NCBI RefSeq assembly: GCF_026151205.1
Contig: NC_087077.1
Location: 12,312,983 to 12,376,982 of the forward strand
Direction of reading: 5' to 3'
Source of the DNA: Bolinopsis microptera
Taxonomy: Eukaryota > Ctenophora > Tentaculata > Lobata > Bolinopsidae
DNA length: 64,000 nt
A program made the translations under genes and the position numbers. The notes beneath the pieces are model-generated. The model had not been told where the DNA came from. It was given only the letters and a program-made list of their open reading frames with translations, and did no database searches. The first letter of the stretch is position 1. Every line of letters begins with the position of its first letter. Positions 14,578 through 63,150 of this stretch are shown one piece after another.

Positions 14578-15061
14578 TTAAAAGCAGTGGCGATATACAA
14601 TTCTTCCATGAACCGTAATATCCACACATTGCTCAATACAAATTATTCGGGCTAAGAGACGTCCTGCAATTGTGTATTGACCAGTTGTTCCACTAACTGT
14701 AACTCGAGCTAGTGTATCACCGCATTGTCTTACTGCTACCGCACTTCTGTCTACATCATTGTGCAGATAAAACAGCTCTCCTTCTTTGTAATAACTGAAT
14801 AAGAAGTTATAAAACTTTTGTTCTGAGATTCTGATTTACCATACTAAAATTATTGACCCTTATCAAGGATAATATAATCTTTCTTTCTTTGTATGCAATT
14901 GCATCACAGATTCATTATACTATTGTGTTGTCATGAAACCATCTATGCAATTTTATTAAATTTGCTTATATCTCATAAAAACCTCATCATAATGGTCATT
15001 GAGAATTGTTTGGCTGGGTTGACTGTTGCACGTAACATATCTACTTCGTAATCCATCGTGT
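14578..15061 (-). CDS. SRCR gene exons 22-23: unrecognised C-terminus
   Basis: Exon 14983-15061 (phase 1 to 2; weak donor GTTTTT) and terminal exon 14578-14794 (72 codons, stop TAA 14578-14580). The last exon is fully open with a balanced composition ([20 protein letters not shown]) but has no start codon, so it is missed by ATG-based ORF finding. No membrane segment or GPI-type tail. Family unknown. Confidence 0.6.
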
Positions 15062-18000
15062 CTGTAATTGTAGATTATTATAATTCAATTTAAGTTTACT
15101 GTAAAGCGAAATTTAAGGAAAGCAGATTGCACAAGTAATGACTGAGAAATTTATGAAATTAAATGTAACCAATAATTTGGGTCCCTGTTATTTACAATCA
15201 TCTAATTTAAAGTGTATACTATAATTTTCATAATAATTGAATCTACCATTAAAACAGTAGACAGAGGCCAACTCGTGAGGAGCACACAGCAACACAGAGG
15301 AATTGCTGTTGTTGTTGTTGAGGTAGGCCCTATCTCGACATTGTCTTGTTCTTGCATCACAGTTTAGTCTGGTTGATACGAAGTTGGTTCCATTTCGAAG
15401 AAGCTGAGAAGGTCCCTTCCTCCCTGTCTCCCACCCAAAGTGAGAGCACAATATTCCTGCTGTTACATCTGTAAATCCATCGTCACAGACACCTCCGTAA
15501 GTCTCCATTTCAGGTTCAATCTTTTCCACTACGTGCAATCCTCTTGGATCACGTTGGGTCAGTTTGAACAGATCGGTTATGTTGCTTATCAAATCTGGAG
15601 GAGGAGCGAAAATATGAGGTTTTGTGGGTTATCTTACATGATATATTACATTATTTTGACTCTGTTTGGTATGTATATTATCGAAAGGAGCTTTTAACTT
15701 TCTTCTTTCTATATTACAGAATATTATATCTTTGAATATAACTCTAGTACCAAGTTGCTAACTCAAATTATATCAAACAGAAGTTTACCTGCATCAGGGC
15801 CACACCTTATGAAAATATCCTCAGAGTGATCGCAGTTATGTTCCAAGGAATATGTGCAGCCACTTGTAATATCATCAGTGTCGTTTAAATTACAGGCAAA
15901 GTCGTCCAAGACAATGTCATAGCCCAATTCACTGAATTTGGTTAAAATTTTAAAACCAATTTAAACCACACAAACAAACCCAAATGAAACAACACAATAT
16001 GTACAAACATGAAGACAACGACAAACATTAAAACACACACTTACAAACACACTCACATGTATAAATAAATGATAGACTAAGCCTTCAAAGAGGCAGTTTT
16101 TTAATTAATTAAATTAAATTTGTTATTCAAAACTCAAAATGACCTTGTTGATGGAAGACCTTGTGGATTTAAAGTAGCGAAAATATCTTCATCTTTAAAT
16201 CCAAGTTGTCTACATACAGCAGCGATGGAATTCTGGTTGAAGCTATCATCACAAACAGTACCATACACAAATTCACCACCTGTAATTTGTTGATACAGGA
16301 ATGTGATAGAATTTTCAACATGGAACAAATATCTCAAAGTGGAATATGGTTACAGTTCAGGCTAGGTAGTGCTATGCTAAGGTTTAGGGTTATGGTTAGG
16401 ATTCATGTGGGATTCCGTTCGGCAGGCTTCTTGGATACTACCAATAATTTATTGTTGGTACGATTTTGAACCAGGTTGTATAAAAAGTTAGAATACCTAC
16501 TTTTCAATGTGCAAATATCTTCCTTTGATTCAAATCCTTGAAGTTTAACTTTAAAGCAGAAAATCAACCTAAGAATCCTTAACACATAATAAATACAGTA
16601 ATTCTTAAGTGTTAACAGCCTTGTACAGTTTGTACTCACTCGGCATTGTGATAGAGGCTAGGAGCAGGCCAGAGGTGGCTCCACTTAAGTTGCTGTCCAT
16701 GTCTATGATCTCAAATTGTATGGTGACATTATATAGATCTGTAGCCTCATCCGATCCATCACCTGAACACGTTTAATTATTATATTTGTGATAATGATCA
16801 TACGCTATTGAGGCAGAAGGGGGGAGGATCCCAGGTTAACCTAATCTCCCACAATAAGGCAAGTGTTGTCACCAACATCATGTTATGTAATTTAAACATA
16901 GTGAGTACTATTATTAGATTAGTATAATAGTTGAAGAAGAATATCCGTAATCATGTTTAAATGACATGTTTATTGTTTACCTGATTCACAAGAAAGGAAG
17001 ACATCCTCGGAGTGAGAACAGTCGTGACTGGTCATGAAAGAGCAGCTGTCCCATTCTTCAGTAGGGCACGCTACTTCGTCAAGTGTTATATTATAGCTGC
17101 TTTGTATATCCCATATTGAACCTGAACTCCATTCTCGGGACCCTGTAAAGTTCATCTCTCTGCATATTGCTGCAGCAGTGTTATTATCGAATCTATCATC
17201 ACAGATAGTGCCACCGTGGTGTAGGATAAGATGAAGGCCATCTTCTCTGGTCTGCTGTCCATTAGAATCAACAAGCTCAAATAGACTTGCATTCCTTCCA
17301 GAGTGTTCTTCTTCTGTTAGAGAAATGTACGTTATTACAATCCATCCACATTACGTTCTTGAGACAGTTATTAAATTAGTTGTTTGTGAAAACTTTGATC
17401 ATTGAGATTAATAGTATTGACTTAGTTGTGGCACTTGAGGGAAAAAAATTCAGTTGAGAAATGGGACTTTTAGACATTACTCCTCAAACTAGGGGGCTTA
17501 AAATATCTTTTTTTATTTAGGCAGCAGCTTCCTTTTAATTAGAACTTTAAGCAATATTATTTTGTATAATACATATTATATAACGAAATCTTGAATAAAA
17601 ATAATTGTAATATGTATAATCAAGTACCAGATTGGCCGTCACTTATGCATGTAAGAAAAACGTCTTCACTGTGACCACAGTTGTGTAAACTTGAGTAAGT
17701 ACAGCTGGACCAAGTGTTGTTCCTGCAGGACACATCATCTAATGCTATACTGTACTCTTCCTGAAGCGGATATCTGGAACCAGACTCATATGAGGATCCA
17801 TTGGCTTGGTAACCCAACAGAGAGCAAATTGCATCAGCAGCATTTTGATCAAAGTTGTCATCACAGACCGTGCCATCGTTGTAGATAAGTAATCCAGATC
17901 TACCTCCATCCCGAGCATTCTCTCCACTTGCGTCTACCAAATTGAAGAGAGCTTCAGCAGAGTCTGAAAATGTGATTGACCTAATTAGTGACCTAATTAG

Positions 18001-21000
18001 TGACCTAATTAGTGACCTAATTAGTGAACTACAGGGTGTTTCAAGACTCGTGTCCAAATTTTGAATGGCCGTTAAAATCTAACAAATAGGTCAAACAGTT
18101 CGATTTTTGTTTAAATTATAGATAAACTAGAAAGCCCGTGATCACACGGAGAAAGGTAATAGTATTCTTTGGTAGTCAGTTTTTATCGCATCAAAAAATA
18201 TCCGTCACAACCGAATAATTACAGCCCATTAAAATTTAGTTCGCATTGAACACAACGTAATTACCACAAAACCGATAAAAATGACGTTAAAACAATCATT
18301 GCACGTGCACGTGCGTGAAATAACCCCCGTTACTATCATATACCTATACCTATTTCTCATCTATTTGCACGTGGGCAGTCATATGTACTGGGCGCCGTGC
18401 TCAGCCTGTCATTCCGACAAATTTCTATTCGGCGGAATAGCCTAGGGTCCCCAGGTAATGATATCACAATATTAACCCACCTGTATCACCAACTCTAAAA
18501 CCCACTGTTTTATCCCAATCAGGATTAAACTTGATGAATTCTACTGTACTAGTCACCCACTCTGAGGACAAACAATCTTCTTCATCAGATTCATCAAAAT
18601 TCATTTCTGCCACCAATACTCCGTTACACTTGATTGAAATACTTTCCAATCCCTGCTTAATGAATGTCCAAATCCTCACGTCATTTTTGGCGTCGGGTAG
18701 ATCTTGCAGCGGTGCGTCATTTTGGCACTCGGCAATGTAGAAGATAGGAGTATTACTTAATCGCACTACAATTCTTGCAAAATCGCTGCCTCTAATTTGC
18801 CCAACTTCAAAAAAGATTTCATCATCACTTCCTATCGAGGAGGTTGTCTTCACTTGAAAAGGTGTATCCTCCCAGGAGTGTGGAAACCAAACATCTTTTT
18901 GTTGAGTTTCCCAAGTCTCTCCTGAAAACAAAATAACCGAATTATTAAAACACTAGAAAACCCGTGGTCACAGGGAGGAAGCTAATAGTATTTTTTGTAA
19001 TATCAACAAAAACGATAAAAAATGCCGAATTTTACAATCTTTGCACTTGCACGTGCGTGTAACAACCCTCGTTACCATGGTTAGTGGTTACTACGCAAGT
19101 TCATATTTTTCGTTTGTTTTGCACGTGGGCGGTCGTACAGACAGACAGCAGAAATAATTCTCCGAATAGAGATTATTACATTTTAAAATACATATCAAAA
19201 ATAACCCAAATATTTCATCAACTTTCCGAACCAAGTAATTAGCTTAGTTGCCACCCTTTGGGTACTTTTAGCCATGTGTTCCATCAACAAATTAGATACA
19301 TCGAATTTAAATCTCTTACCGCGAAAACATGTCAGGTGGACATCTTCAGAATGACCACAGTTGTGCACTTCCGTATATGTACAATTTGACCAGCTCTGAT
19401 CTTGACAGTCGATATCATCAAGGTTTATATCTAACTCTTCCTGCATTTCAAACATCGGTCCATTTTCCCAGCCTGTTGATCTGGCATAATTCATTTCCTT
19501 GCAGATAACATCAGCAATATTGTCACTAAAACCATCATCACATACGGTACCCCCATTATAGGTCAGTAGACCCGGACCAAACCTCATGGCATTACCATCT
19601 TCATCAACCAGTCTAAACCTATTCCACCCAGGTTCCTCTATGTCAGGTTCCGGGACCTCTGTGACGGGACCTACAGTGTACTTACTATAAGTAAATAACA
19701 ATGGGTATTTTTAAAAGACATCTTTTAAAACAGCACAGCTCAAGAAGATTAAACTGGTTACAGGCCGAGCTAAATTTGCTTTACTAATCAGAATCTGAAA
19801 AGTTTTAAGTAATAATTGGTTTTAAAATACACTGAACTAACCAGGTTCACTTTCGAAGCAAGATCTGTCGGCATATTGCCATTCTGAGTCTGCAAAAGTT
19901 GTGTGTTCTCCAATAATGTAACACCCTGTCACCCCCCAACTGAGTGGACTGATCGCAATACCCTCGCATCTGTAAAATTTGCTTAGTGATAATTCCAAAT
20001 TTATGCAAGTATTTGTTGGCGACGAGCAGACAAGCTGCAATCTCAATTGTCTGGATAAAATGTCACTTTACAGTCCAGATTGGATTATATCATTAGTAAA
20101 ATACAAATAAAAAACCAACCTGCTCTCAGATAAACACAGCTCCACACAATCCTCCCTCCCAGTATATGTTACTTCTTGTATCACTGAGCCACTACTCCTT
20201 CTGTTGCTCATGAAGCAGGAGTCAATATCTGGTTCACCTGATCGTGTATAATCTGGTTCAACGGGTGTTGTGGAATGTGTTGGGTCAGGTCCTGGGTGTG
20301 TTACCTCTGGTACTGGACGATTACACGTCAGGAAAACATCCTCAGAATGTCCACAGTTATGTGTTTCTGAGAAGGTACAGGTGGACCAGCTCGTAGAATA
20401 GCAGTCCACATCATCCAGTGTGATATCATACCCGTTCCGGTCGTCCCTGTTTCCACTAGTATAGTTCGATGGGGATCCTGGATACCCCAATTCTCGGCAA
20501 ATAGCAATTGCAGCATTTGTGCCAAATCCATCGTCACATACAGTTCCTCCATTGTATAAGAGTAAACCTATCTCTCCATCCCCAACGTCATTGCCATCTC
20601 CGTTCACTATTCTAAATCCTTCGGCTGCAGCTTCTTCTAAAACAGCGATTGGTTACATCATAGACCAAACAATTCTTTGAAATTAATTATGTAAGAACCA
20701 ATATACCGATACTTTGCAAAGGCTGATTATGACAAACTGTCTACAAAAATGATAGAAGCTGTACAGACTGCAGATTAAGTGCGTGATAGCTTCTGTAGTA
20801 AAAAAAAGACAGTGAATGGAATTGACATGATGCGCAGTATTGGAAACCATCAACTGTATAAATAAAAGGGAAGATCCACTCAAGTTTATCCTTGAATTAG
20901 TTGTAAAAGCTGGATGAGATGACGAAGAAGACTCGTTAGAAATCTGAAGTAAGAGCTCAAAAAGAACTGCTAGAGTTATTTGGAAGCTACCTAGGAGCTA

Positions 21001-24000
21001 GCGTAAATCGACGAATAAAAATATCTTAAATTTACCTCCGCGACACAGGAGGAATACATCCTCACTATGTGAACAATCGTGGCTGGTTTGGAATTCACAA
21101 GATGCCCAATCGTCACTCACACACTGTACTTCATCCATTTTGATTTCAAAGTCGCTCTGTATGTCAAAGTCATTGCTGTTGCTCCAACTAGCTCCACTTT
21201 CATATCCCATTGCTTTACAGATCGCTCCTGCAGCGTTGTCATCAAAGGCATCATCACAAACTGTGCCTCTGTTGTAAAGCAGTAAACCTCTCTCTCCAGC
21301 CCCAACCTCATCCCCAGATTCGTTGATCAGCGTGAAAATTTCTACTGTCGCATTACCTGGAGATCGTGGGTTACTGTATCTCACTGTATCCGGTATCGTG
21401 TCTAGTCTATAGGTGCAATTACATAATATGTTACATAATATGTTATATAATATGTTAAACAATATGTTACACGATATGTTACATGATAATATGTTACATC
21501 ATTTGCTTTACTTTAAACTTGACGAGCAAGCTACAGACTACAGAGCCTGATAAGCATATTGTTTCTTATCTGAAAGTCACTAGAGCACTTTGTGAGCAGA
21601 GCATTGAATTTAATAAATTTGGGGAATGAGCACCATCACTATTTATTGGGGGTTCTCTTCCTCAACTTGATCTATGATCCTTAAGTATGATCTATGATAT
21701 TGATCACAAGGTATATAGTACAAAGCGTTTGATTTATTTTTTTAGGGTACATTTTCAAAATAAAGTGTTTCCCCCGATTGCAATCAAAGAGTTTGATTGG
21801 AGGACCAATAATTTAAAGTCATGGACATTACCTTGGGCGGCAGCACAAGTAAGGAATACATCTTCAGAATGTCCACAGTTGTGAGATGTGGAATAAGTGC
21901 ACTCCTCCCAGTCTCGGTTTCTGCACGCCACATCATCTAGTGTTATGTTTAGGGTTTCTGCGAATCTGTGAACCTGCCCACTTCTGAAGGTCATTGCTTC
22001 CGGATACCCCAGTTTTCGGCAAACTGCGTGGGCTGCATTAATATCAAAGTTATCGTCACATACAGTTCCTCCATTGTAAAGTAGCAGTCCTTCTTGCCCC
22101 CCTGACACTTGGTTCCCGTCCTGACTCATCTGACTGAACTCTTCCTGCTCCTCTTCCTGCTCCTCCTCCTCCTCCCTATCTGGGAATTGTACGGTTAACT
22201 ATCTCGTTAACAACAAGAAAACACATAAGCTATTAAGAGGTCCATGATGTGTGTAAAATCTAATCTTAAACAATAATCTCAGAACGTGTGTTTGTGCGTT
22301 TTTAATTTCAGAGCGGCTTAATCAAGAAAACGGTAAGAGTTACGGGGCTGGTTTTTATCGGTATAGTGCCGACAAAACTATGAGGAGGCCAAATGATTAA
22401 GGTTTTTTAAATCGGCTGGTGTTAAGTGGTTGAATTGATGGTTTTAAGGGGGCCGGGGGGGGGGGGGGGGGGTCTTCAGCAAAATTCTCTCGAAAAGGTC
22501 TATTCTAGCCGAGATTATTGCCGGTCAAAGGTCAGAGCTTATGTATAATTGTATTGCGTGAGCGATTTTCTAAAAATCGAGTCTAAAAATATATCTTCTC
22601 CTATATTTTTTGAGCAATCACCCTGAAACTTTCAGGATATGTTTTAGGGATCATTTAGAAGAGATAAGAAGTATTGAGCCGAATTTGAGATAGTCAAAAA
22701 TTGAAAATCGCTCACGCAATACAATTACACATAAGCGCTGACCTTTGACCAGCGATTATTTCGACTAGGAACAACAATGTTCCATGGGACCGAAAGCAGC
22801 TGATAGATATCACTCCCCTCTATCAGAAACAACTATAAAATCAATTTCGAGAGAATTTTGATGAAGACTTCCCGGCCCCCTTAAACCACAAATGCAAATG
22901 TTACGTAAAATGGCTCACATTTTCTTCCTCCTCGCTCTCTCTCCCATTACTGAATACTGCATATTATGTAGCGTTGGTTCAAACTTTTGACTAAAATTGT
23001 CGTAAACCAAATTTCATGAGAAAAAATTTTTCGACGACTAATTTTAAAGGAGACCAAAATTTCAGTAGAGCATATATGACATGACTATTGAATATTATTA
23101 AGCTTACATTTCCTACATTGATTATAGGGCTTTATAATTAATATAAGGACATCACTGTTCCTATTGTACAAAACCGTACCAAATTCCTATTGCACTTAAA
23201 GGGTTAGAGCTCCTCTTGGAGATAACATTTTTAATCGATCCATCTCAATGCATGGTCTGTTGAAACGGCTGAAGGATCATATCGACATAAACTAGGTCGT
23301 ACCGACAGAAATGGTAAAGTCAAAAAAGGGTGAAAAAGAAACCGAACAGCGTACTGAAGAACTTAGTGACACAGAGTCACAGACTCTGGATCTGATGTTA
23401 TTGAAATTCCTGAGTAATGCATTGCAGCTTTAAAATCTGTAATCTGCAGCTTAACCTGCTCAGACGGGTGCTCATTGTCGAATTGATAGATCACGTCCGT
23501 CTATGTCCGCTTGTCACATAGAATCCAAAAAGGACAGGACAGGACATTGCCGGATATTGACGAACAAAAGTGGACAGCAAAATTTGCTAAATGTTGCTAA
23601 ATTTTGCTAAATTTTGCTAAATTTTGCTAAATTTTGCTAAATTTTGCTAATGACGGCTAATAACGGCCAGGTAGCGTAGTTGGTTGATCATCGGATTTGT
23701 AATCGTGAGATCGCGAGTTCGAATCCCACTGCCTGCCTAGTTGTGGGGTGAGCGTCGTTGACGCTCTGCTAAGGATCCCGAGTGGTATATGTAGCCCCAC
23801 GGTTCACTCAGCCGAATTCTCGAGAAATCGGGTGTGAGGGTTAAATGAGGAGCTGTGCTTGATCAACACAGCGAAGCCTCGGGCGAAGAAAGTGTGGCAT
23901 AGTGCCTTAACCGTCGCTGGCCTTAGGAACGATCCTTCGGCTTCTTGTAATTTTAACTTCAAGCAATTGTCTAGAAACTTCCATTAACTTGATAAAATTG

Positions 24001-27000
24001 AGAACGAAAGCACTATTAATACAATCACAGGCTGCTGACTTAAAAGAGACTTGGACTCCAAACAATTTTAAGTTACAGTAATTTAATCTAATTGCAGCGG
24101 CACATAACATAATTTAAACTATTGCTATCATTATTGTACTACAGACTGAAAATATCTCAGATCTATTTTGGGCGTTTTTAACAACTTATAGTTGTAATTC
24201 TTAAATATTAGATATCCTAATTTATAACTTTTTAATCAGAGTGAATTAATAATTGATATTTGATAATTTATATATTTGATAGTTTAGTCTGATATTGATA
24301 TTAATATTGATTATATTGATATTGTTATTATTGAATGAAGCTAACTCCAGACATAAATAATACTACTTCTATTAACAAAGGGACTTGGAGTATAAACGAC
24401 CAATTTTGCATAATTGTCTTTCCAACCAAGAATTCAGGAGGCAAGGGTGGGTGCGTAAACTTTATGGTCTGCACTCTCAGATCCTGTATCACCCTGGATT
24501 CATTTCGACGTATTTTTGGTAAAAGTATACATATACTTTCTGGTCACTCTCTTGCTACTCCAAGTCCCCTAAGATATATGGTCTAAAGTTTGCACTAGTT
24601 TAAATATATAAAATATGTTTTTGTCTGCTTTAACTGATACTAAATAAAATTGTTGTTTTCTTGAAATTGTTGTTTTCTTGTAAAGCTCTTCCTTGAAAGT
24701 GCTGGTTTACATTGTAATGCAGGTAATGCCGAAGTAAAATAACAAAGGTGGTCGACTCATTCGATGGCCTTGTTGCGTCGCAACGAATCCTCATAAGATA
24801 AGATAAGATAAGATAAGATAATGAGGCAGGCGGTGATGATTTTTCAAAAAAGTTCAAATTGTATGTGGTTCATTCTGTAGATCCTGTTTTAACTTAAATT
24901 AGGTATATTCGGGCACGAAGTGAGATGTCCAGGACTGTTGTACTTGGATCATACAAGATCCAGATAACCTTGTGACGCATTGAGGCCCTTGAGGCACCAC
25001 TTTGAGGCCCCTGAGGCACCACTTTGAGGCACTGAGGCCCACGGAAAACCATGCACGATAAAAAACACTTGAGCTTAAAAAGGAAAAATGCGTTTTGTAA
25101 TTTACCCTGGTCACAATCAGTTAGGGAACTTGCAGTCCATCCACGCCTTGCTGTTATTTGCGTAGTGCCCACCAGAAAGCACTCTCGGTCAGCCCAATTC
25201 TCGGGACTCACGGCTACTCCTTGACAGCGTGGAGTATCATCACACCATTCCTGACAACTCTCAAAACTCATGAACCGTCTCTGTTTTAATTTCTGGGAGT
25301 CCGGAAACATACCAACATTCTGCTCGTAGCTTGTATAACAGCCTGAAACATATTATAGATACGTTTGCGTACCGTGTCTATATATTATATGATCGCAGTT
25401 TATAATTTAAAATTCAGTAAGAAAACGTAAAAGAAAAAGTCAAAGAATCAGAATAGCATTAGTCCGATTTTGGTTTACATTTTGGTGACATTAAAAAGTT
25501 TGATCAAGTCAACGCGAAGTCATGGACAGAAGTTGAGAAAATGCTTAATGTTAGGTGATTTCCATTCAAATTAATTGAATCATATCGATATAAACTAGGT
25601 CGTACCGACAGAAATGGTCAAGTCGAAAAAGGGTGAAATAGAAACTGAACACTGAACAGTGTACTGAAGAACTTAGTGGTACAGAGTCACAAACTCTGGT
25701 TCAGATGTCATTGAAATTCCTGAGTAATGCATTGCAGCTTAATCTGTAATGCTCAGACGGGGTAGACTAAATTTGTCGTTCTTAAGGGGGCCGGGGGGGG
25801 GGGGGGGGGTCTTCATCATATCTATCAGCTGTTTTTGGTCCCATGGAAAAATATTGTTCTTAGCCGAAATTATTGCCGGTCAAAGGTCAGCGCTTATGTG
25901 TAATTGTATTGCGCGAGCGATTTTCAATCGCGCGCCCTGAAAATCGATGTCTAAAAATCTATCTTCTCCTACATTTTTTGAGCAATCACCCTGAAACTTT
26001 CAGGATATGCTCTAAGGACCATTTAGAAGAGATTGTCGGGCCAGAATTTTGAGATAGGCCTTAGAACATTTTTTATTCAATTTTAAAAATGTTGGACCTC
26101 GTTTTTTGACGATTTTTTCAGGTCCAAGATTTTCAAAATCGAATAAAAAATGTTCTAAGGCCTATCTCAAAATTCTGGCCTGACATTCTCTTCTAAATGG
26201 TCCTTAGAACATATCCTGAAAATTTCAGGGTGATTGCTCAAAAAATGTAGGAGAAGATAGATTTTTAGACTCGATTTTCAGGGCGCGCTATTGAAAATCG
26301 CTCGCGCAATACAATTACACATAAGCGCTGACCTTTGACCGGCAATAATTTCGGCTAAGAACAATTTTTTTTAAAGAGAGGCTGGGCCAAGATAGCCCAC
26401 GAGAGGATAGCATTGAGATGCTCTGCCTACCTCTGGCGTGTGGCAACCTTGGGGAAGGACAATATTTTTCCATGGGACCAAAAACAGCTGATAGATATCA
26501 CTCCCCTCTATCAGAAACAACTATAAAATCAAATTCGAGAGAATTTTGATGAAGACCCCCCCGGCCCCCTTAAGGTAAATGGAATGGAAAATGATCTCAA
26601 AAATTCGAAAAATGTGACTAAAATTGTGGTAACCAAATTTATTGTGAACCAAATTTATTGGCCCTAAGGTATATCATAATTACACTGGCATGTAATACTA
26701 AATAAACATATTAGGGAAGGGAGCGCTCATAACGATCTGTTTGGACCGTATGTAGAGAGTTCATACTTTCATGCGACAATGTGATGCATGTTTTCAAATA
26801 TGCGGGTGTGGTGCGGAGTTAATAAGGGTTAATTTCTATTGATTATTGTTTAAGTTACTATTGTTTAAGATACTATTGGATATGTAAGGGCGCTCTGAAT
26901 AGAATTGCTCACCTAATGTGGGTTTTGACTCAGCGGTAAATACTCCTAACTGTGGCAGTGATATATCCCGGCCTACATAGGCTATTTAAGGGTCCATATT

Positions 27001-30000
27001 GTGTGTAAAGTCTAATATTTATATAATGTCTTTGTCCAATGTTCATGATGAATCGTCAAATCTAACTTTATATCAATTTGTCTGAACACAATTCTGTGAC
27101 AATATCGATAGTTCTGGGTCTTAATAATATTTCTCAAATTTATGCCTACAGTTCAATATAATGTTGCAATGATAAATGTTTACCATCATTAATGCAACTA
27201 AGGAAGACGTCTTCAGAGTGCCCACAGTTGTGAGAAGTTGTGTAGCTGCAACTCTCCCAGCTTCTATCTTCACATCTCACATCATCCAGTGTGATATCGT
27301 ATCGCGATCGGTAGCCTACCTCTCCACCAGACTGCCATTCTGATGAACTAGCATAGCCCATTGTTCTGCAAATAGCATCGGCTGTGATGTCATCAAATTC
27401 GTTGTCACAGACGGTTCCCCCCTTGTAGAGCAACAGCCCAAGTTCTCCGGGTGAAACGTCACCATACTGTCTGACCAGTTGGAACAAGATGATTTGTTCC
27501 GTGGGCTCCACTATTGTCTCTGTTGTTACAGATGGTGACGCGGAAGTGGATTCTTCTGATGTGGTCATGTTTTCTGCATCTGTTGTCATTAGTTGACCTT
27601 CCGTTGTACCTGTAGTTTCATCTTTGGGCGGTGTTGTTGGTTCAGTCGTTTGTTCTGCTGCAAACGTATGATGTAAGGATTTAAAGACCCCTTATAGTTG
27701 ATTTAAAAATACATGTTATGTTGTCTTCGAAATATGTTTAATCTGATGTAGTTTGTATATCTACCTGGACATTCTACTTCATCAGACCCATCACTACAAT
27801 CATCTTTGCCGTCACAAACCCAGCTCCTGTAGATACACCTGTCTGGACACCGGAACTCGTCCTCGATACACTCCGGTACTGCTGTCACCCCTGCAGATTT
27901 CGTCGATTTCAGGTGCCGACAGGACCATAAAAATTAAAAGCAAACATACATTTTTTCCCTTAAAATCGTGCGCTTTCTGCGCAAACAATTGGCTTCAACA
28001 AAAAAAATCAAACATGGCTTCAAATCCAAATTTGAACAAGAGATTTTTCACTTCCTCTCGATAAACTCAATTTACAACCCAAAATAAAGTCTCAAAGGGG
28101 GAAATTTCTCAGGCACCCCTGCAGATTTCGTCGATTTCAGGTGCCGACAGGACCATAAAAATTAAAAGCAAACTTAAATTTTTCCCCTAAAATCGAGCGC
28201 TTTCTGCGCAAAAAATTGACCTCAGCAGAAAAAAATTAAACATGGCTTCAAATCCAAATTTGAACCAGAAATTGTTCACTTCCTCTTGATAAACTCAATT
28301 TTCAACCCAAAATAAAGTCTCAAAGGGGGAAATTACTCAGGTCAGGATTGTAGGCAATGATTATGCCAAACCATTCATTTTTGTAAATTCATTAAACTTT
28401 CAATTTAGCCTAAAACACCCTATTTCGCAAAATTGTACCGGGGGCTGCGCCTCCCAAGCCCCCGCCAATGGGGTCCGCCCCTGGACCCCGCTTGAGGCTG
28501 CGCCCCCAGACCCCTGCCACAGTATGCAGCTTCGCTCGCCGACAGCCCCCCCCCCCCCAAAGAAAAATCCTGGCTACGTGCCTGAGCAAAATATATGTTT
28601 AGGGCTTTTCAGATGATTTGGCTCCTCGACAGATACCGACGTACGCGCCACCCGACTACCATGAGCCTCTTAACGGTCAATATGTAGTTTAGGTTTACCT
28701 GGCCCGTAGGATACAAATGTGCCCGAGGAGAAAAAAAGCAAACCTAAGAGGATTTCTCGGGAACTTAAAAGTTCACCTCAAAACGAAATCTGCACCTATG
28801 ACTTAACTGCTGTAGTCGACTCACTTTGTTCGAGTGTCAGTGTTGTCGGTGTTGGTGTTGGTGTCAATGTCGGTTTCGGTTTCGGTTTTGGTGTCGTTGA
28901 ATCTGTGGAAAGATAGACATTAGAACCACAATTACACTGGGTGATATTCAAATGCAAGTTAAGATCAGTTTCTGAAGCTATTAACACATAAGCTATTTAA
29001 GGGTCCATATTGTGTGTAAATTCTAATAATTATATATAATGTCTTTTTCCATGATGAATCTTCAAATCTAACTTTATATCAATTTGTGACAATATCGATA
29101 GTTCTTGGTTTTAATAATATTTCCTAAATTTATGCCTACAGTATAATATAATGTTGCAATAACAAATGTTTACCATCATTAATGCAACTAAGGAAGACGT
29201 CTTCAATGTGCCCACAGTTGTGAGAAGTTGTGTAGCTGCAACTCTCCCAGCTTCTATCTTCACATCTCACATCATCCAGTGTGATATCGTATCGTGATCG
29301 GTAGCCTACCTCTACCTCAGACCGCCATCCTGATGAACTAGCATATCCCATTGTTCTGCAAATAGTATCGGCTGTGCCGTCATCAAAATGGTCGTCACAC
29401 ACTGTTCCCCCCTTGTAGAGCAAGAGCCCAAGTTCTCCGGGTGAAACGTCACCATACTGTCTGACCAGTTGGAACAAGATGATTTGTTCCGTGGGCTCCA
29501 CTATTGTCTCTGTTGTTACAGACGGTGACGCGGAAGTGGATTCTGGTGATGTGATCATGATTTCTGCTGTTGTCATTTGTTGACCCTCCGTTGTACCTGT
29601 AGTCTCATCTTTGGGCGGTATTGTTGGTTCAGTCGTTTGTTCCACTGCAAACGTATGATGTAAGGATTTAAAGACCCCTTATAGTTGATTTAAAAATACA
29701 TGTTGTCTTCGAAATATGTTTAATCTGATGTAGTTTGGCTTGTTTTATTTTATTATTTTGTTGCGAGTTGTATATCTACCTGGACATTCTACTTCATCGG
29801 ACCCATCACTACAATCATCTTTGCCGTCACAAACCCAGCTTCTGTAGATACACCTGTCTGGACACCGGAACTCGTCCTCGATACACTCCGGTACTGCTGT
29901 AGTCCACTCACTTCGTTCGGGTGTCGGTGTTGGTGTCGGTGTTGTCGGTGTCGTTGGACCTGTGGAAAGATAGACATTAGAACCACAATTACACTGGGTA

Positions 30001-32099
30001 ATATTTAAATGCAAGTTAAGTTTCTGAATCTCTGCTTAGATCTGTTTGTATAACATCAGAGTTGTAGAGTGTGAATTATTGATTAATATGGGCATAATTT
30101 TAATTCTAATTTACCGTTGCAGCCTAACTCATCTACACCATTCAGACAATCTTCCTCTCCGTCACATCTCCAGTGGGAGGCAATACAGCGCTCGGGACAT
30201 CTAAATTGACCAGGGCCACACAAACCTGAAATTAAGCGACGTGTCACATCGTCATAATATGGACATTAGATACGCCAAAGGGTGTGAGCAACGCAGAATG
30301 CAGATACACTCACCGCCAACAGTATCACGTGATATACTTTAAAACTCGTGCGTGTTTCTGCATGCACGATGGAAATGACCAATATTATTATATAATGATA
30401 CGGCACCCCAACGTATCTGAGACTACTGTTATAACTTATTACAGTTATATTTCTTAAATTAGTCACTTATAACCTCTCAACTTACTTGAACTGTCAGGTC
30501 TTAGCAAGAGAGTCATGGAAATTTGTTCTCTGAATCTCGAAGAGAAGCATCGTATATATGTGTTGTTATGGGCTTCTGTGAATTCATAGATTAAGACAGT
30601 TATGGACGTTTTTACTGTTCCATTCTCTAATCGGTAGGAGGATCTTGTGAAGTCGGCCTCTTGCCAGTATGATGGTGAATCACCGATATCATCACCATCA
30701 ATTAACATTTGGAATGTGTCGTCTGCAGAGGGTGCAGCAATAGAGCAAGTTATGGAGGAGGCTCCCCCCACTACTGCAGACTGGAGACTGGGGCCCCGGA
30801 TATGTAACCGAGTTGGTGGTTGCTCGGTTAGTGCTGAAATGATATTTTATTATTTTATATTAATTTCTTTTAAGTATGTATGTTCAACTACAATGAATTT
30901 GTTTTGAATTCCCACAGTAGCAAAACTATTTCAGCCAAACATTAATTAGATTTGAAGCTAAATTAATCCAAAGACCGGATTTAAGTTTAAATTGGCTCTT
31001 GAAAGCTCAATCTTTCTATCAGACCTATTTTGATTTTTTCCGGGGAGACGTTATTTCACAATCATACGTCATTTTCAACAATAAGCGCGTTAACAGAGGA
31101 TACGAGTCACCTAATTTATAATTCAAAAGTTTCTGTTTTTATTTTTTGTATGTTCGTTGTAGGAAAGATATTGGAGCGACATTTTGATCTGTTTTAATTT
31201 TACTAAGTAGTGTTATTATGTAGTGTTCAGTGCGAGTTACAATTTAATTAGCTGTATCTTCGGTTGTGATGGACATTATTTGATGCGATAAAAACTGACT
31301 ATCAAAGAATAGCGAATGCTCTTATATCAGCTTCCTTCCTGTGACCACAGGCTTTCTAGTCTACCTCATAATTTGAAAGTTTCTTTTTGATTGTCTGTCT
31401 GTCTGACCGGCCACGTGCAAATAGGAAGTTGCATATTATGCATAGTAACGAGAGTGGAACGCCCACGTACGTCGTGCACGTGCAATTATTGTTAAAAGTG
31501 TTAGAAAGATATTATGATAGGGTTTGTTGTCATTTCACGTTGTGTGGAGTATTGTATTTTATATTTAAATCGGCTGTATCGGTAATGATGCGATAGATAT
31601 ATTTTGTTGATGCAATAAAAACTGACCATCAAAGAATACTATTAAAGCTTCTTCCCCGTAACCTAAACAACGTGCTATCTAGTATTATATAATATTTCGG
31701 TTTTTACTACCAACCCCTCCCCCCTATTTCCACCCCTGCCCCCTATTTCCACCCTCTCTCCCCCTATTTCCAACCTGCCCCCTATTTCCACCCTGCCCCC
31801 TATTTCCACCCCTGCCCCCTATTTCCACCCCTGCCCCCTATTTCCACCCTGCCCCCTATTAGTATTTCCACCCCTGCCCCCTATTTCCACTCCTGCCCCC
31901 TATTTCCACCCTCTCCCCCCTATTAGTATTTCCACCCCTGCCCCCTATTTCCACCCTCTCCCCCCTATTAGTATTTCCACCCCTGCCCCCTATTTCCACT
32001 CCTGCCCCCTATTTCCACCCCCTCTCCCAGACCCCGTTTGAACTAACCTGGTCGGAACAGCACGGCTGAACACACAAATATCACAAACGAAAGATTCAT
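14578..32099 (-). CDS. Large secreted mosaic protein: Ig, LDLa x3, SRCR x10, PAN-like x2 (23 exons)
   Basis: Reconstructed minus-strand exons: 32048-32099, 30486-30833, 30115-30225, 29780-29959, 29174-29644, 28825-28902, 27765-27890, 27184-27657, 25106-25342, 21832-22179, 21036-21383, 20120-20636, 19842-19969, 19320-19670, 18481-18921, 17628-17963, 16981-17313, 16640-16762, 16144-16279, 15789-15931, 15196-15594, 14983-15061, 14578-14794. Every junction is GT..AG and phases agree throughout (mostly 1-1), giving 5,976 nt, about 1,991 residues. Domain order: signal peptide, Ig, LDLa, LDLa, SRCR, LDLa, SRCR, PAN-like, three SRCR (the third with a second PAN-like), SRCR, unknown domain, four SRCR (one split over three exons), unknown C-terminus. 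No C-terminal hydrophobic segment, so probably secreted. SRCR/LDLa mosaics act in pathogen or self recognition and adhesion (family knowledge); the exact role here is not known. An ATTAAA at 14541-14546 (minus) could be the poly(A) signal. Confidence 0.85.
15196..15594 (-). CDS. SRCR gene exon 21: divergent SRCR-like domain 10
   Basis: Begins like an SRCR ([15 protein letters not shown]), then diverges: no HNCGHSEDV block, a Cys-rich CDARTRQC segment and an Asn/Ser run instead. Read-through gives a stop at 15188; the in-phase donor GTAAATA at 15190-15195 leads to exons 22-23. Confidence 0.7.
15789..16762 (-). CDS. SRCR gene exons 18-20: SRCR domain 9 split by two introns
   Basis: Exons 16640-16762 ([10 protein letters not shown] start), 16144-16279 ([16 protein letters not shown]) and 15789-15931 ([21 protein letters not shown]) join at phases 1, 2 and 1 to give one SRCR domain. 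It is the only one in the protein that is not encoded by one exon. Confidence 0.82.
16981..17313 (-). CDS. SRCR gene exon 17: SRCR domain 8
   Basis: Landmarks [38 protein letters not shown]. Phase 1-1. Confidence 0.88.
17628..17963 (-). CDS. SRCR gene exon 16: SRCR domain 7
   Basis: Landmarks [39 protein letters not shown] 12-bp GACCTAATTAGT tandem repeat sits at 17977-18027 immediately 5' of its acceptor. Confidence 0.9.
18120..18445. repeat. Dispersed intronic repeat (copy 1)
   Basis: From AACTAGAAAGCCCGTGATCAC to the CCCCAGG block. Related sequence recurs at about 18950-19170 and, inverted, around 31180-31400 and 31420-31690 (GATGCGATAAAAACTGAC, GCACGTGGGC and TTGCACGTGC landmarks). All copies lie in introns of the SRCR gene. 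Confidence 0.65.
18481..18921 (-). CDS. SRCR gene exon 15: unrecognised 147-residue extracellular domain
   Basis: A single phase 1-1 exon, so one shuffled module. Alternating hydrophobic strands ([40 protein letters not shown]) with few cysteines suggest a beta-sandwich or lectin-like fold. I cannot assign it to a named family. Confidence 0.7.
18950..19170. repeat. Dispersed intronic repeat (copy 2)
   Basis: Same family as 18120-18445 (CTAGAAAACCCGTGGTCACAGG start; GCACGTGCGTGTAACAACCC core). Confidence 0.6.
19320..19670 (-). CDS. SRCR gene exon 14: SRCR domain 6
   Basis: A Pro/Glu linker, then [37 protein letters not shown]. Phase 1-1. Confidence 0.9.
19842..19969 (-). CDS. SRCR gene exon 13: rest of the second PAN-like domain
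   Basis: Forty-two codons ([20 protein letters not shown], then CFESEPG) aligning with the second half of exon 9. Phase 2 in, 1 out. Confidence 0.8.
20120..20636 (-). CDS. SRCR gene exon 12: SRCR domain 5, Pro/Thr linker, start of second PAN-like domain
   Basis: SRCR landmarks [38 protein letters not shown], then a Pro/Thr linker and a new cysteine module ([17 protein letters not shown]) that is completed in exon 13. Phase 1 in, 2 out. Confidence 0.88.
21036..21383 (-). CDS. SRCR gene exon 11: SRCR domain 4
   Basis: Acceptor GATACAG is chosen because it restores phase 1; the farther upstream AG gives an immediate stop. SRCR landmarks [36 protein letters not shown]. An ATATGTTA(C/A)-type minisatellite (21420-21490) lies in the intron just upstream. 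Confidence 0.88.
21832..22179 (-). CDS. SRCR gene exon 10: acidic linker and SRCR domain 3
   Basis: Starts with a run of Glu codons from a TCC/CTC repeat (22140-22172), then SRCR landmarks [36 protein letters not shown]. Phase 1-1. Confidence 0.9.
22448..22880. mobile_element. TTAA-flanked foldback MITE, copy 1 (433 bp)
   Basis: TTAA at 22444-22447 and 22881-22884. Ends GGGGGCCGGG and CCCGGCCCCC. The arms contain GACCTTTGACC/GGTCAAAGGTC and ACGCAATACAATTA inverted across a centre near 22650. TTAA target preference points to a piggyBac-type transposase acting in trans (inference). It lies in SRCR gene intron 9. Confidence 0.82.
23277..23465 (+). repeat. Dispersed repeat with a short ORF start (copy 1)
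   Basis: Matches 25578-25762. Contains ATGGTAAAGTCAAAAAAGGG opening a 38-codon charged frame; in copy 2 that frame is broken early. Possibly the 5' end of a LINE ORF1. Confidence 0.65.
23581..23650 (+). repeat. 10-bp minisatellite (TTTTGCTAAA)
   Basis: About six near-perfect copies of ATTTTGCTAA immediately 5' of the tRNA-like SINE head. Confidence 0.85.
23665..23905 (+). mobile_element. tRNA-derived SINE
   Basis: The 75-bp head carries a pol III A box (TAGCGTAGTTGG, 23672-23683) and B box (GTTCGAATCC, 23717-23726) at tRNA spacing, with a Thr-like TGT anticodon loop. Several stem pairs fail and the acceptor arm is imperfect. The non-tRNA body continues with GTGGGGTGAGCGTCGTTGAC and GCGAAGCCTCGGGCGAAG. 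I read it as a SINE, not a functional tRNA. Confidence 0.7.
24790..24822 (+). repeat. AAGAT pentanucleotide microsatellite
   Basis: Six copies of ATAAG/AAGAT. Confidence 0.85.
25106..25342 (-). CDS. SRCR gene exon 9: PAN/apple-like cysteine-rich domain
   Basis: Seventy-nine codons with cysteines in [31 protein letters not shown] and TDCDQ. The central CxxxC..CxG(V/I)A(V/I)SP pattern recurs in exons 12-13. It resembles PAN/apple or WSC-like modules; the family call is tentative. Confidence 0.7.
25578..25762 (+). repeat. Dispersed repeat (copy 2)
   Basis: Direct-orientation match to 23277-23465 (CTAGGTCGTACCGACAGAAA landmark), ending just before foldback MITE copy 2. Confidence 0.65.
25786..26569. 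mobile_element. TTAA-flanked foldback MITE, copy 2 (784 bp)
   Basis: TTAA at 25782-25785 and 26570-26573, with the same termini and arms as copy 1 but longer, centred on a second palindrome (about 26050-26170, arms GCCTTAGAACATTTTTTATT). An extra block of about 95 bp (about 26364-26460, GAGAGGCTGGGCCAAGATAG) breaks the right arm and looks like a later insertion. Confidence 0.82.
27184..27657 (-). CDS. SRCR gene exon 8: mucin-like stalk and SRCR domain 2
   Basis: Paralogue of exon 5 (about 90% identical by eye): same stalk, then [36 protein letters not shown]. Phase 1-1. Confidence 0.9.
27765..27890 (-). CDS. SRCR gene exon 7: LDLa half of a transposon-split exon
   Basis: The LDLa repeat ([13 protein letters not shown]) is complete. 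Its only nearby acceptor is CTGCAG at 27891-27896, inside the terminus of the inserted element, giving a 126-nt phase 1-1 exon. Confidence 0.65.
27886..28805. mobile_element. 920-bp transposon insertion with 8-bp target repeat, splitting an LDLa exon
   Basis: ACTGCTGT flanks the insert (27878-27885 and 28806-28813) and occurs once in the uninterrupted paralogous exon near 29893-29900. The ends share an inverted TGCAGATTTCGT-type block (27890-27902 against 28784-28796). An 8-bp duplication is typical of hAT-type elements (family knowledge). Inside, a unit of about 219 bp beginning CACCCCTGCAGATTTCG is tandemly duplicated (27886-28103 and 28106-28340), followed by a GC-rich GGGGGCTGCGCC block (28440-28550). 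No transposase. Confidence 0.85.
28825..28902 (-). CDS. SRCR gene exon 6: stalk half of a transposon-split exon
   Basis: Twenty-six codons of TP/KP-rich stalk after a TTCCACAG acceptor. If spliced at the internal GTGAGT (28819-28824), the phase is 1 and joins exon 7 in frame. Read straight on, the transposon supplies a stop within a few codons. Confidence 0.6.
29174..29644 (-). CDS. SRCR gene exon 5: mucin-like stalk and SRCR domain 1
   Basis: A Thr/Ser/Pro-rich stalk of about 50 residues precedes one SRCR domain with [28 protein letters not shown] and DVFLSC landmarks (six cysteines). Very similar to exon 8. Note HNCGHIEDV against HNCGHSEDV in its paralogue. Confidence 0.9.
29780..29959 (-). 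CDS. SRCR gene exon 4: Thr/Pro stalk and LDLa repeat
   Basis: A low-complexity TPT/TP stalk (GGTGTC-type repeat DNA at about 29918-29958) leads into an LDLa repeat with [13 protein letters not shown]. Phase 1-1. This is the intact version of the duplicated unit whose other copy is broken by a transposon at 27886. Confidence 0.88.
30115..30225 (-). CDS. SRCR gene exon 3: LDL-receptor class A repeat
   Basis: Thirty-seven codons with six cysteines and the calcium box [13 protein letters not shown]. The usual SDE serine is replaced by Val, so calcium binding may be weakened. Confidence 0.85.
30486..30833 (-). CDS. SRCR gene exon 2: immunoglobulin-like domain
   Basis: Phase 1-1 exon of 116 codons. 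It has a B-strand cysteine (SSITCSIA), a SYWQEADF tryptophan segment and an F-strand cysteine (NNTYIRCFS), spaced as in V/I-type Ig folds, plus N-glycosylation sequons. There is one Ig domain only. Confidence 0.8.
31180..31690. repeat. Dispersed intronic repeat, two inverted copies
   Basis: Two tandem inverted copies of the 18.1-kb family, each ending near ..AGTCTACC / ..ATCTAGTATT, in SRCR gene intron 1. Confidence 0.55.
31705..32032 (+). repeat. Pyrimidine-rich minisatellite (CCCCCTATTTCCACCC)
   Basis: About 18 units of 16-19 bp in SRCR gene intron 1, with ATTAGT interruptions. The minus (transcribed-sense) strand is a series of GGGG tracts spaced by TGGAAATA, capable of G-quadruplex formation. 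Confidence 0.9.
32048..32099 (-). CDS. SRCR gene exon 1: signal peptide
   Basis: Seventeen codons from ATG at 32099: [17 protein letters not shown], a compact hydrophobic leader, ending in a phase-1 donor GTTAGT. It lies 0.34 kb downstream of the ApeC-sushi gene's last exon and may be an alternative first exon. Confidence 0.75.
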
Positions 32100-60970: not shown

Positions 60971-61830
60971 GATGTCAATTATAGCAAATAAATCAGAATA
61001 AATACTGTACAAAAATGACAATACATAGTATCGAATGATATCTTGTTTGCAATCCAATACAAACAAATCCCCATTTCTCGTGTGCCCAAGTCTATATCAC
61101 AGAGTGCAGGGAGGATAGGGATTCTAATGTTGACAAATAACTTCGTGGGGCAGGGAGGGGAGAGAGGGTCTCTTGTTCAGTCGTCTGAGAGATGTGATCA
61201 CTGATTTGACCAATCCCATCTTCTGTACTCTTTTCTTCTGGTTGGAAGGGTGATCTGAGTTGCCAGATGATCTCTCCTCAAGATCAGGGTTCATAGTTGG
61301 TGAGGGAGGTGAAGTGGTAGAGTCAGTACAGTTAGAGCGAGCGAGAAAACTTTGAAAGAGATGGGGATATCTTTCCCGCATAGAGCATTCAGAGTCCTGT
61401 ATCATGACGGAGGGCTCTAAAGAGTCGTCGTCCGAGTTCTGTGTCTCGTAGCTCTCCAGTTCTGAGAGACAGCTACCCTCTAAGATGAAAGTTAGCAGTC
61501 CTATTTTAGAGGTCTCCGTGTTCTTCTCTTCAAAACAGTTGTCAGTAGAGTGGAATAGTATGCTACAATTCACCTGAACTGTGCGGGTACGGAAGGTGGG
61601 CGTCGCAGGTTTGATGGGACTGGGACAAGTTGGAGCGAGGTACTTGGAGCTGAGCAGAGAGATGCGGGCAGATTTAGCTGGAGAGGAGCAGAATTGAGGA
61701 AATGGGAATGAAGGGGATTTAGCTAGAGACATATCAGCAGTTCAGAAAATAGTTCAAGCTAACAAGAAGATTGTTAAATAGTTAGATAGTTGATGAAAAC
61801 TGTAGAGTTTGGACGAAATTTGAATATGAA
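60970..61830 (-). repeat. Left arm of an inverted gene duplication
   Basis: Contains the coding copy 61124-61732 and matching 3' flank (GAGAAATGGGGATTTGTTTG at about 61080-61061) and 5' flank (ACTATTTTCTGAACTGCTGAT at about 61751-61731). The partner is about 62310-63150. Confidence 0.9.
61124..61732 (-). CDS. Intronless gene of unknown function, minus copy (202 aa)
   Basis: Starts MSLAKSPSFPFPQFCSSPAK: Ser/Pro-rich N-terminus, a conserved core KIGLLTFILEGSCLSELESY, a Ser/acidic linker, and a basic helical tail KKRVQKMGLVKSVITSLRRL ending HEVICQH. No signal peptide, no membrane segment and no family I recognise. Compared with its partner it keeps the full frame. Most differences look like substitutions plus a three-codon length change, so both copies are under constraint or recent. 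The lack of introns beside intron-rich genes is compatible with origin by retroposition. Confidence 0.75.
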   Translation of the reverse strand: MSLAKSPSFPFPQFCSSPAKSARISLLSSKYLAPTCPSPIKPATPTFRTRTVQVNCSILFHSTDNCFEEKNTETSKIGLLTFILEGSCLSELESYETQNSDDDSLEPSVMIQDSECSMRERYPHLFQSFLARSNCTDSTTSPPSPTMNPDLEERSSGNSDHPSNQKKRVQKMGLVKSVITSLRRLNKRPSLPSLPHEVICQH

Positions 61831-62309: not shown

Positions 62310-63150
62310 TTCACATTTTGTCTACATTCTACAACTTACAATTAACTGTTCAACACAACAAGTCCTTGATACTATTTTCTGAACTGCTGATATGTCTCTA
62401 GCTAAATCCCCTTCATTCCCATCTCCTCAATTCTGCTCCTCACCAGCTAAATCAACCTCCAGCTCCAGACTGCAGTACTCCTCCCCAACTTGTCCCAGTC
62501 CCATCAAACCCGCAACCCCTAACTTCCGTACCCGCACAGTTCAGGTGAATTGTAGCATACAGTTCCAGAGTAACAGCTGTATTGAAGAGAAAAACACGGA
62601 GACCTCTAAAATAGGACTGCTAACTTTCATCCTAGAGGGTAGCTGTCTCTCAGAACTGGAGAGCTACGAGACACAGAACTGTTATGACTACTCTCTAGAG
62701 CCATCTATCTTGTTACAGGACTCTGAGTGCTCCCTAAGGAACAGATATCCTCATCTCTTTCAAAGTTTCCTCGCTCCCTCTAACTGTACTGACTCTAGAC
62801 CTTCACCTCCATCTTCAACTAGGAACACTGACCTGGGAAAGAGGTCATCTGGCAACTCAGATCACCCTTCCAACCAGAAGAAAAGAGTACAGAAGATGGG
62901 ATTGGTCAAATCAGTGATCACATCTCTCAGACGACTGAACAAGAGACCCTCTCTCCCCTCCCTGCCCCGCGAAGTTACTTGTCAACATTAGAATCCCTAT
63001 CCTCCCTGCACTCTGTGTTATTAACTTGAGTTGAAGAGAAATGGGGATTTGTTTGTATTGGATTGCAAACAAGATATCATTCGATACTGTGTATCGTCAA
63101 TTTTGTACAGTATTTATTTTGATTTGTTTGCTATAACTTACATCACGACT
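62310..63150 (+). repeat. Right arm of the inverted gene duplication
   Basis: Mirror of 60970-61830, including 5' UTR, coding region and 3' flank up to TTTGCTATAACTTACATCA. Confidence 0.9.
62392..62991 (+). CDS. Intronless gene of unknown function, plus copy (199 aa)
   Basis: Paralogue of 61124-61732, sharing the same start, core KIGLLTFILEGSCLSELESY and basic tail, differing mostly in the Ser-rich linkers. It has the better promoter (TATATAAG at 62278). Function unknown. Confidence 0.78.
   Translation: MSLAKSPSFPSPQFCSSPAKSTSSSRLQYSSPTCPSPIKPATPNFRTRTVQVNCSIQFQSNSCIEEKNTETSKIGLLTFILEGSCLSELESYETQNCYDYSLEPSILLQDSECSLRNRYPHLFQSFLAPSNCTDSRPSPPSSTRNTDLGKRSSGNSDHPSNQKKRVQKMGLVKSVITSLRRLNKRPSLPSLPREVTCQH

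Follow-up and report, generated by a model that had tools for sequence, protein, structure and literature searches.

The window, as we call the whole 64,000-nucleotide stretch of DNA that was analyzed, carries on its minus strand a gene for a DMBT1-like scavenger receptor. A 480-residue query that included the predicted splice junction was composed before P0046 came to light, and it matched NCBI protein P0046, entitled "deleted in malignant brain tumors 1 protein-like isoform X2" and assigned to the ctenophore Bolinopsis microptera (NCBI protein search), with 100% identity and 100% coverage, the predicted junction included. Mapping of P0046 onto the window yielded one solution for each of its 21 introns, all 21 of them GT-AG, and a 934-bp intron running from 28824 to 27891 is among them; at the junction site the protein reads TLEQRVTAVPEC. 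The features around this intron are as follows.

14581–30708, minus strand: host gene (DMBT1-like scavenger receptor) as covered by P0046, 1906 aa, mapping as 22 coding exons
29780–29959, minus strand: intact paralogous stalk-LDLa exon, tandem sister of the split exon, which represents the empty site
28825–28902, minus strand: upstream, stalk-coding piece of the split exon, 78 nt, from the P0046 mapping
27891–28824, minus strand: annotated intron, 934 bp, phase 1, GT-AG, from P0046
27765–27890, minus strand: downstream piece (LDLa domain), 126 nt, its first 5 nt (GGGTG) from the element; P0046 mapping and Pfam PF00057 on the joined exon
28819–28824, minus strand: 5' splice site GTGAGT, host sequence older than the insertion, 4.69 bits
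27891–27896, minus strand: 3' splice site CTGCAG, carried by the element terminus, 2.88 bits
27886–28805, unstranded: non-autonomous DNA transposon of 920 bp that interrupts the second stalk-LDLa exon, recognized from its relatives and from the empty site in the paralogue
28806–28813, unstranded: target site duplication (TSD) ACTGCTGT, high-coordinate copy, exact 8-bp duplication
27878–27885, unstranded: TSD ACTGCTGT, low-coordinate copy, exact 8-bp duplication

A protein search found no transcript-derived fragments carrying the junction, and the protein cluster of P0046 holds two member sequences. P0046 begins at a Met inside an open exon (30463–30846), the upstream part of which resembles a Mnemiopsis protein by eye; the model is therefore partly unsure, and its N terminus is probably incomplete or an alternative start. 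Further upstream of the gene model, positions 31667–32041 hold a repetitive stretch that reads as peptide repeats.

An earlier reading of this DNA from sequence only had placed the insert within a single stalk-LDLa exon, between two 8-bp repeats, and had pointed to the paralogous exon as its empty site; the TSD is indeed exact, and the exon is uninterrupted in the tandem paralogue. The same reading had GTGAGT and CTGCAG divide the exon into pieces of 78 and 126 nt, both of phase 1-1, which our mapping bears out, and had the frame restored by removal of the insert, which it is, the open frame being kept with a net loss of 6 nt. The price had been put at about ten residues, whereas those 6 nt amount to 2 residues, SESTT giving way to RVT. 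The spliced exon reads LEQRVTAVPEC, and the change sits in the linker before the LDLa domain. The 934-bp intron consists of 915 bp of insert and 19 host bases, and 5 bp of the insert remain exonic. The same GTGAGT also lies unused in the intact paralogue, as had been claimed, at 29906–29911, where the public model reads through it. Because each piece is phase 1-1, the frame is kept with both, either or neither of them.

A transposon-derived intron gain calls for an empty site and for a mobile family that leaves target duplications. The first is supplied by the paralogous exon together with the Mnemiopsis peptide SESTTAVPEC, and the second by the intron sequence itself. The closest Mnemiopsis proteins (P0047–P0058, isoforms of one gene, with orthology to Bolinopsis assigned by best match) contain this pre-insertion peptide in 12 of 12 cases, and the Bolinopsis form is therefore derived; among 219 proteins compared, the peptide RVTAVPEC occurs in P0046 only. 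A search of the assembly for an empty-site haplotig revealed none, the neighboring-unit query giving long matches at the window locus alone.

We searched the genome that contains the window (G000, 264.65 Mb in 232 contigs) for relatives of the insert. With the insert as query, 40 scored matches were obtained from 417 candidates and 29 other loci were cut out, all 29 of which align from insert position 219–229 to 915–920. A 30-bp terminus pattern, allowing up to 3 mismatches, matched 95 times (76 exactly), and the reversed-pattern control gave 0 matches. Two of these matches are the window copy; of the 93 others, 73 were read and 20 left out. The 8-bp duplication is exact in 53 of the 73 other copies and has no more than one mismatch in 63, a count that allowed offsets from −3 to +7; the 3' end lay within the stretch for 65 copies and was absent for 8. 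Where a TSD was recognizable the offset was 0 in 59 of 63 copies, and +2, +2, +4 and −1 in the remaining four. The terminus matches, with their zero control, and the duplications identify a family of young, non-autonomous DNA transposons of ~670 bp. The 95 matches against 0 and the duplications at 63 of 73 other copies also rule out a chance duplication or an assembly artefact at the window locus. A genome search for copies whose terminus provides an acceptor had been proposed as a check, and the AG is kept in 73 of 73 copies read (72 CTGCAG, 1 GTGCAG). In five copies (L056, L058, L080, L091 and L092) the match to the element stops somewhere from element position 251 to 339, which would fit a stretch prone to rearrangement.

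Comparison with these relatives showed the window copy to be a mosaic.

27886–28113, unstranded: unit 1, the element's left 228 bp; nearest copy L002, 3 of 203 sites differ
28114–28341, unstranded: unit 2, a second, inserted left end; nearest copies L003 and L004, 4 of 227 sites differ
28342–28800, unstranded: remainder of the element, ending in canonical CACCTATG at 28800; nearest copy L002, 6 of 459 sites differ
28801–28805, unstranded: five extra bases, ACTTA, between the canonical 3' end and the TSD, from comparison of offsets with other copies
27892–27903, unstranded: left terminal inverted repeat core TGCAGATTTCGT, overlapping the acceptor hexamer on the gene strand
28783–28794, unstranded: right terminal inverted repeat core ACGAAATCTGCA

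The segment 27886–28113 duplicates 28114–28341 in tandem (228 bp), and a second CTGCAG, ending at 28119, exists for that reason. A search of the genome for the junction between the units, TCAGG/CACCCC, with one mismatch allowed, gave 1 match, which rules out a composite subfamily mobile as such. In the simplest account, an L002-like copy would have received a second left end, either nested or copied into it, and the mosaic ancestry fits nesting or repair within this copy. Private substitutions of the window copy number about 4 over 662 compared sites (four further differences in unit 1 fall where L002 is deleted and stand outside this count), and this small number indicates a young insertion. 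With dS of 0.084 and dN of 0.053 between the paralogous SRCR exons, the exon duplication appears several times as old as the insertion, as far as can be judged from two units that look patchily homogenized. The tandem units (27659–29779) differ at none of 101 sites in the LDLa-SRCR intron, at 29 of 203 in the intron that follows and at 29 of 472 in the SRCR exons, a patchy divergence of the kind that gene conversion would leave. The LDLa piece shows 2 synonymous and 0 non-synonymous differences from its paralogue, and selection on this piece was rejected as proof of use, the insertion being far younger than the duplication; an insertion so young deprives an intact LDLa frame of any value as proof.

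To score the splice sites we used a weight matrix built from 32 introns of the same genome, 20 of them the remaining introns of P0046 and 12 from the related gene P0059. The donor (AAA/GTGAGT) is equaled or undercut by 5 of the 32 true donors and the acceptor (CTGCAG) by 3 of the 32 true acceptors, and on the gene strand of the window ~8% of GTs reach the donor score and 13% of AGs the acceptor score. Both annotated splice sites are thus weak, from which leaky splicing is to be expected, and removal of the insert would probably be incomplete. Two competing sites inside the insert score higher than the annotated ones.

28582–28583, minus strand: competing acceptor AG, 8.33 bits
28693–28698, minus strand: competing donor GTAAAC, 10.06 bits

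Among 16 frame-keeping open GT-AG pairs into the LDLa piece, 28824/27891 is the best, with 7.58 bits against 2.26 for the next. A latent donor as good as this one lies no more than 30 nt upstream of 681 of the 4948 exon positions of the gene (13.8%), and the coincidence of an available donor is therefore not extreme. In the predicted RNA fold the inverted repeats 27892–27903 and 28783–28794 pair with each other (12 bp plus 3, 14.5 expected pairs) and cover most of the acceptor hexamer, and the donor lies in a local hairpin; such folding could help or hinder splicing.

Taken together, we regard a transposon-made intron at this position as probable, and give a probability of about 0.65 to a recent gain in which the latent host GTGAGT and the CTGCAG of the element are used in transcripts. 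A non-autonomous DNA transposon, possibly hAT-like, landed recently in the stalk-coding portion of one of the two tandem stalk-LDLa exons. The host GTGAGT, whose first base lies 11 nt before the duplicated target on the gene strand, would then pair with the CTGCAG at the element end, and the spliceosome would cut out 934 nt, 915 of insert and 19 of host. The protein would be altered solely by the exchange of SESTT for RVT in the linker preceding the LDLa domain. The claim of a recent intron gain made by the sequence-only reading thus stands with respect to the donated acceptor, the prior donor, the frame and the recent date, and P0046 contains the exact junction; use of that junction in transcripts is the part that we infer.

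A less likely but still credible explanation is that the exon is broken, with transcripts mostly skipping both pieces, from the previous SRCR exon to the next, or using one of them, and that the annotated intron is a frame-driven prediction. Skipping would keep the frame, both pieces being phase 1-1, and the weak annotated sites and stronger decoys within the insert would promote it. String comparison shows that eleven shorter predicted Mnemiopsis isoforms among P0047–P0058 are without blocks of 108 to 767 residues present in the longest (one of the isoforms, P0056, also has an insert of 129 residues relative to it), so that leaving out modules by alternative splicing seems usual here. The standing of 28824/27891 as the best-scoring frame-keeping pair means, moreover, that a predictor could choose it without transcript reads. 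Against this, NCBI isoform X2 retains both pieces, and a low-complexity stalk piece of 78 nt would, in our view, hardly find support in protein homology alone.

It is improbable that the insert is instead retained in the mRNA or cuts it short, in which case the protein would be truncated and the allele, which may be polymorphic, null or near-null. Read-through would hit an in-frame TAG no more than 10 nt into the insert, with many further stops behind it, and the insertion is young, with ~4 private substitutions in 662 sites, but the NCBI model runs on through the insertion and no empty-site haplotig was found in the assembly. Excision from the mRNA by 'SOS splicing', the inverted-repeat-guided removal of DNA transposons from mRNA, in place of the ordinary spliceosome is very improbable, for the terminal repeats do pair in the predicted fold but the exact inverted repeat is only 12 nt long, a canonical GT-AG pair is present and annotated, and the term was absent from the papers listed in our literature search.

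Beyond the intron gain that we favor for the window, the family might constitute a ready-made intron in one orientation, with the window copy and two others (L062 and L019) as a nascent introner family, which we consider unlikely. On the gene strand the element has a GT five bases inside its start (CATAG/GTGCAG) and an AG five bases before its end (CTGCAG/GGGTG). Splicing at these own sites would keep the frame because it adds exactly 18 nt (5 + 5 + the 8-bp duplication), although by our reading one of the three frames would meet the TAG. In the window copy the five extra bases would make the element's own donor unusable, leaving splicing to the host donor. The terminal donor of the element counts against this, scoring −0.91 bits, below 32 of 32 true donors (lowest 2.2).

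L062 (G000:C2:18104402-18107102) splits a 185-aa frame in the same orientation, where own-site splicing would add its 18 nt in frame; an uninterrupted, 60%-identical paralogue of the frame lies on contig C11, and a weak GIY-YIG match falls below the cut-off. L019 (G000:C2:20219394-20223079) lies, again in the same orientation, in a likely last coding exon (the frame ends ...KLLDIKTKK stop) in which own-site splicing would keep the frame and no Pfam family scored above the cut-off. L068 (G000:C3:6594376-6597076) sits in the opposite orientation in a degenerate exon among tandem similar exons, one of which, downstream, is uninterrupted; its GH38 match is below the cut-off. Two more copies have Pfam matches above it; L065 falls in a frame for reverse transcriptase, and L051 lies near an exon encoding laminin-EGF. 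None of these five, among the 73 of 93 copies read, was demonstrable as an intron, with Pfam run on 18 spanning frames: 8 of the 14 copies with a spanning frame of at least 75 aa (six, mostly repeats, were omitted) and 10 of the 21 with one of at least 55 aa, a survey that coding exons lacking a Pfam domain could escape. We also looked for frame-keeping rescue by a host donor of at least 3 bits, positioned between 60 nt before the element and 12 nt into it, combined with the terminal acceptor, and among 65 copies in this orientation only the repeat-rich L018 offered it (2 frames).

The event is of a known type and its novelty is modest; its documentation at the DNA level is unusually good. Giroux et al. 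1994, to judge by its title, reportedly described the creation of a new intron by the maize transposon Ds (Dissociation). Ds is a hAT element, and several cases of Ds in exons use splice sites at the Ds ends. The window element would likewise have made an intron, but Ds acts in a plant, in several cases with splice sites at its own ends, whereas the window donor belongs to the host and the element is only possibly hAT.

Gozashti et al. 2022 (PMC9860276) and Yenerall and Zhou 2012 (PMC3443670) already describe transposon-made introns, including those with a carried 3' site, and a 2025 human study cites them without testing them. The Introners of PMC9860276 share with the window case a DNA-transposon copy, with TSD and inverted repeats, that serves as an intron. 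They form families of many introns, whereas here a single annotated intron stems from the element, and its donor, unlike theirs, is an exonic site that predates the insertion and lies outside the TSD. In the same account, Introners occur in only two of the groups of animals and land plants, both of them animals, and the main text of PMC9860276 contains 0 occurrences of "ctenophor-", "Bolinopsis" or "Mnemiopsis". PMC3443670 names, among the routes of intron gain, a transposon that may "activate nearby latent splice sites", a route that the window case would share. In the table of Yenerall and Zhou 2012 (PMC3443670), the 35 gains by transposon insertion are from Oryza, Drosophila, Oikopleura and Zea, with none from ctenophores, and our literature search, which covered listings and the openings of abstracts, found no ctenophore case of a transposon-made intron.

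Clean, recent intron gains in animals are seldom found with the element, the empty site and both splice sites recognizable at a single locus. A newborn intron here, if true, would combine one host splice site with one transposon splice site. The intact tandem exon is a built-in control within the same transcript, and RNA-seq of carriers would therefore yield the splicing efficiency of the newborn intron. The introner reading, if true, would place an emerging introner family in an animal lineage for which the literature that we found has none on record.

The element is possibly hAT-like. The 8-bp length of its duplications, exact in 53 of 73 copies and with at most one mismatch in 63 of 73, is that of the hAT superfamily, for which the TSD consensus is nTnnnnAn. 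Position 2 of the TSD is T in 27 of 62 sites (raw p 0.026 with eight positions considered) and position 7 is A in 28 of 62 (raw p 0.0098, again with eight positions); both occur together in 11 of 62, and the 2-7 pair is complementary in 14 of 62. The most pronounced preference is for G at position 6 (28 of 62). The T2/A7 preference is thus weak and the TSDs lack clear palindromy. A genome search with the hAT dimerization domain gave 150 scored matches from 365 candidates, which are at most candidates for an autonomous partner with the element ends CACCCCTGCAGATTTCG and CATAGGTGCAGATTTCG. One match (G000:C11:13114500-13116187) is separated by 1.7 kb from the end of L002, the nearest copy to that of the window, a closeness that could be chance. 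Near the end of the window, two similar reading frames (61124–61741 and 62383–62991) lie on opposite strands as a divergent pair, and both begin TADMSLAKSPSFP.
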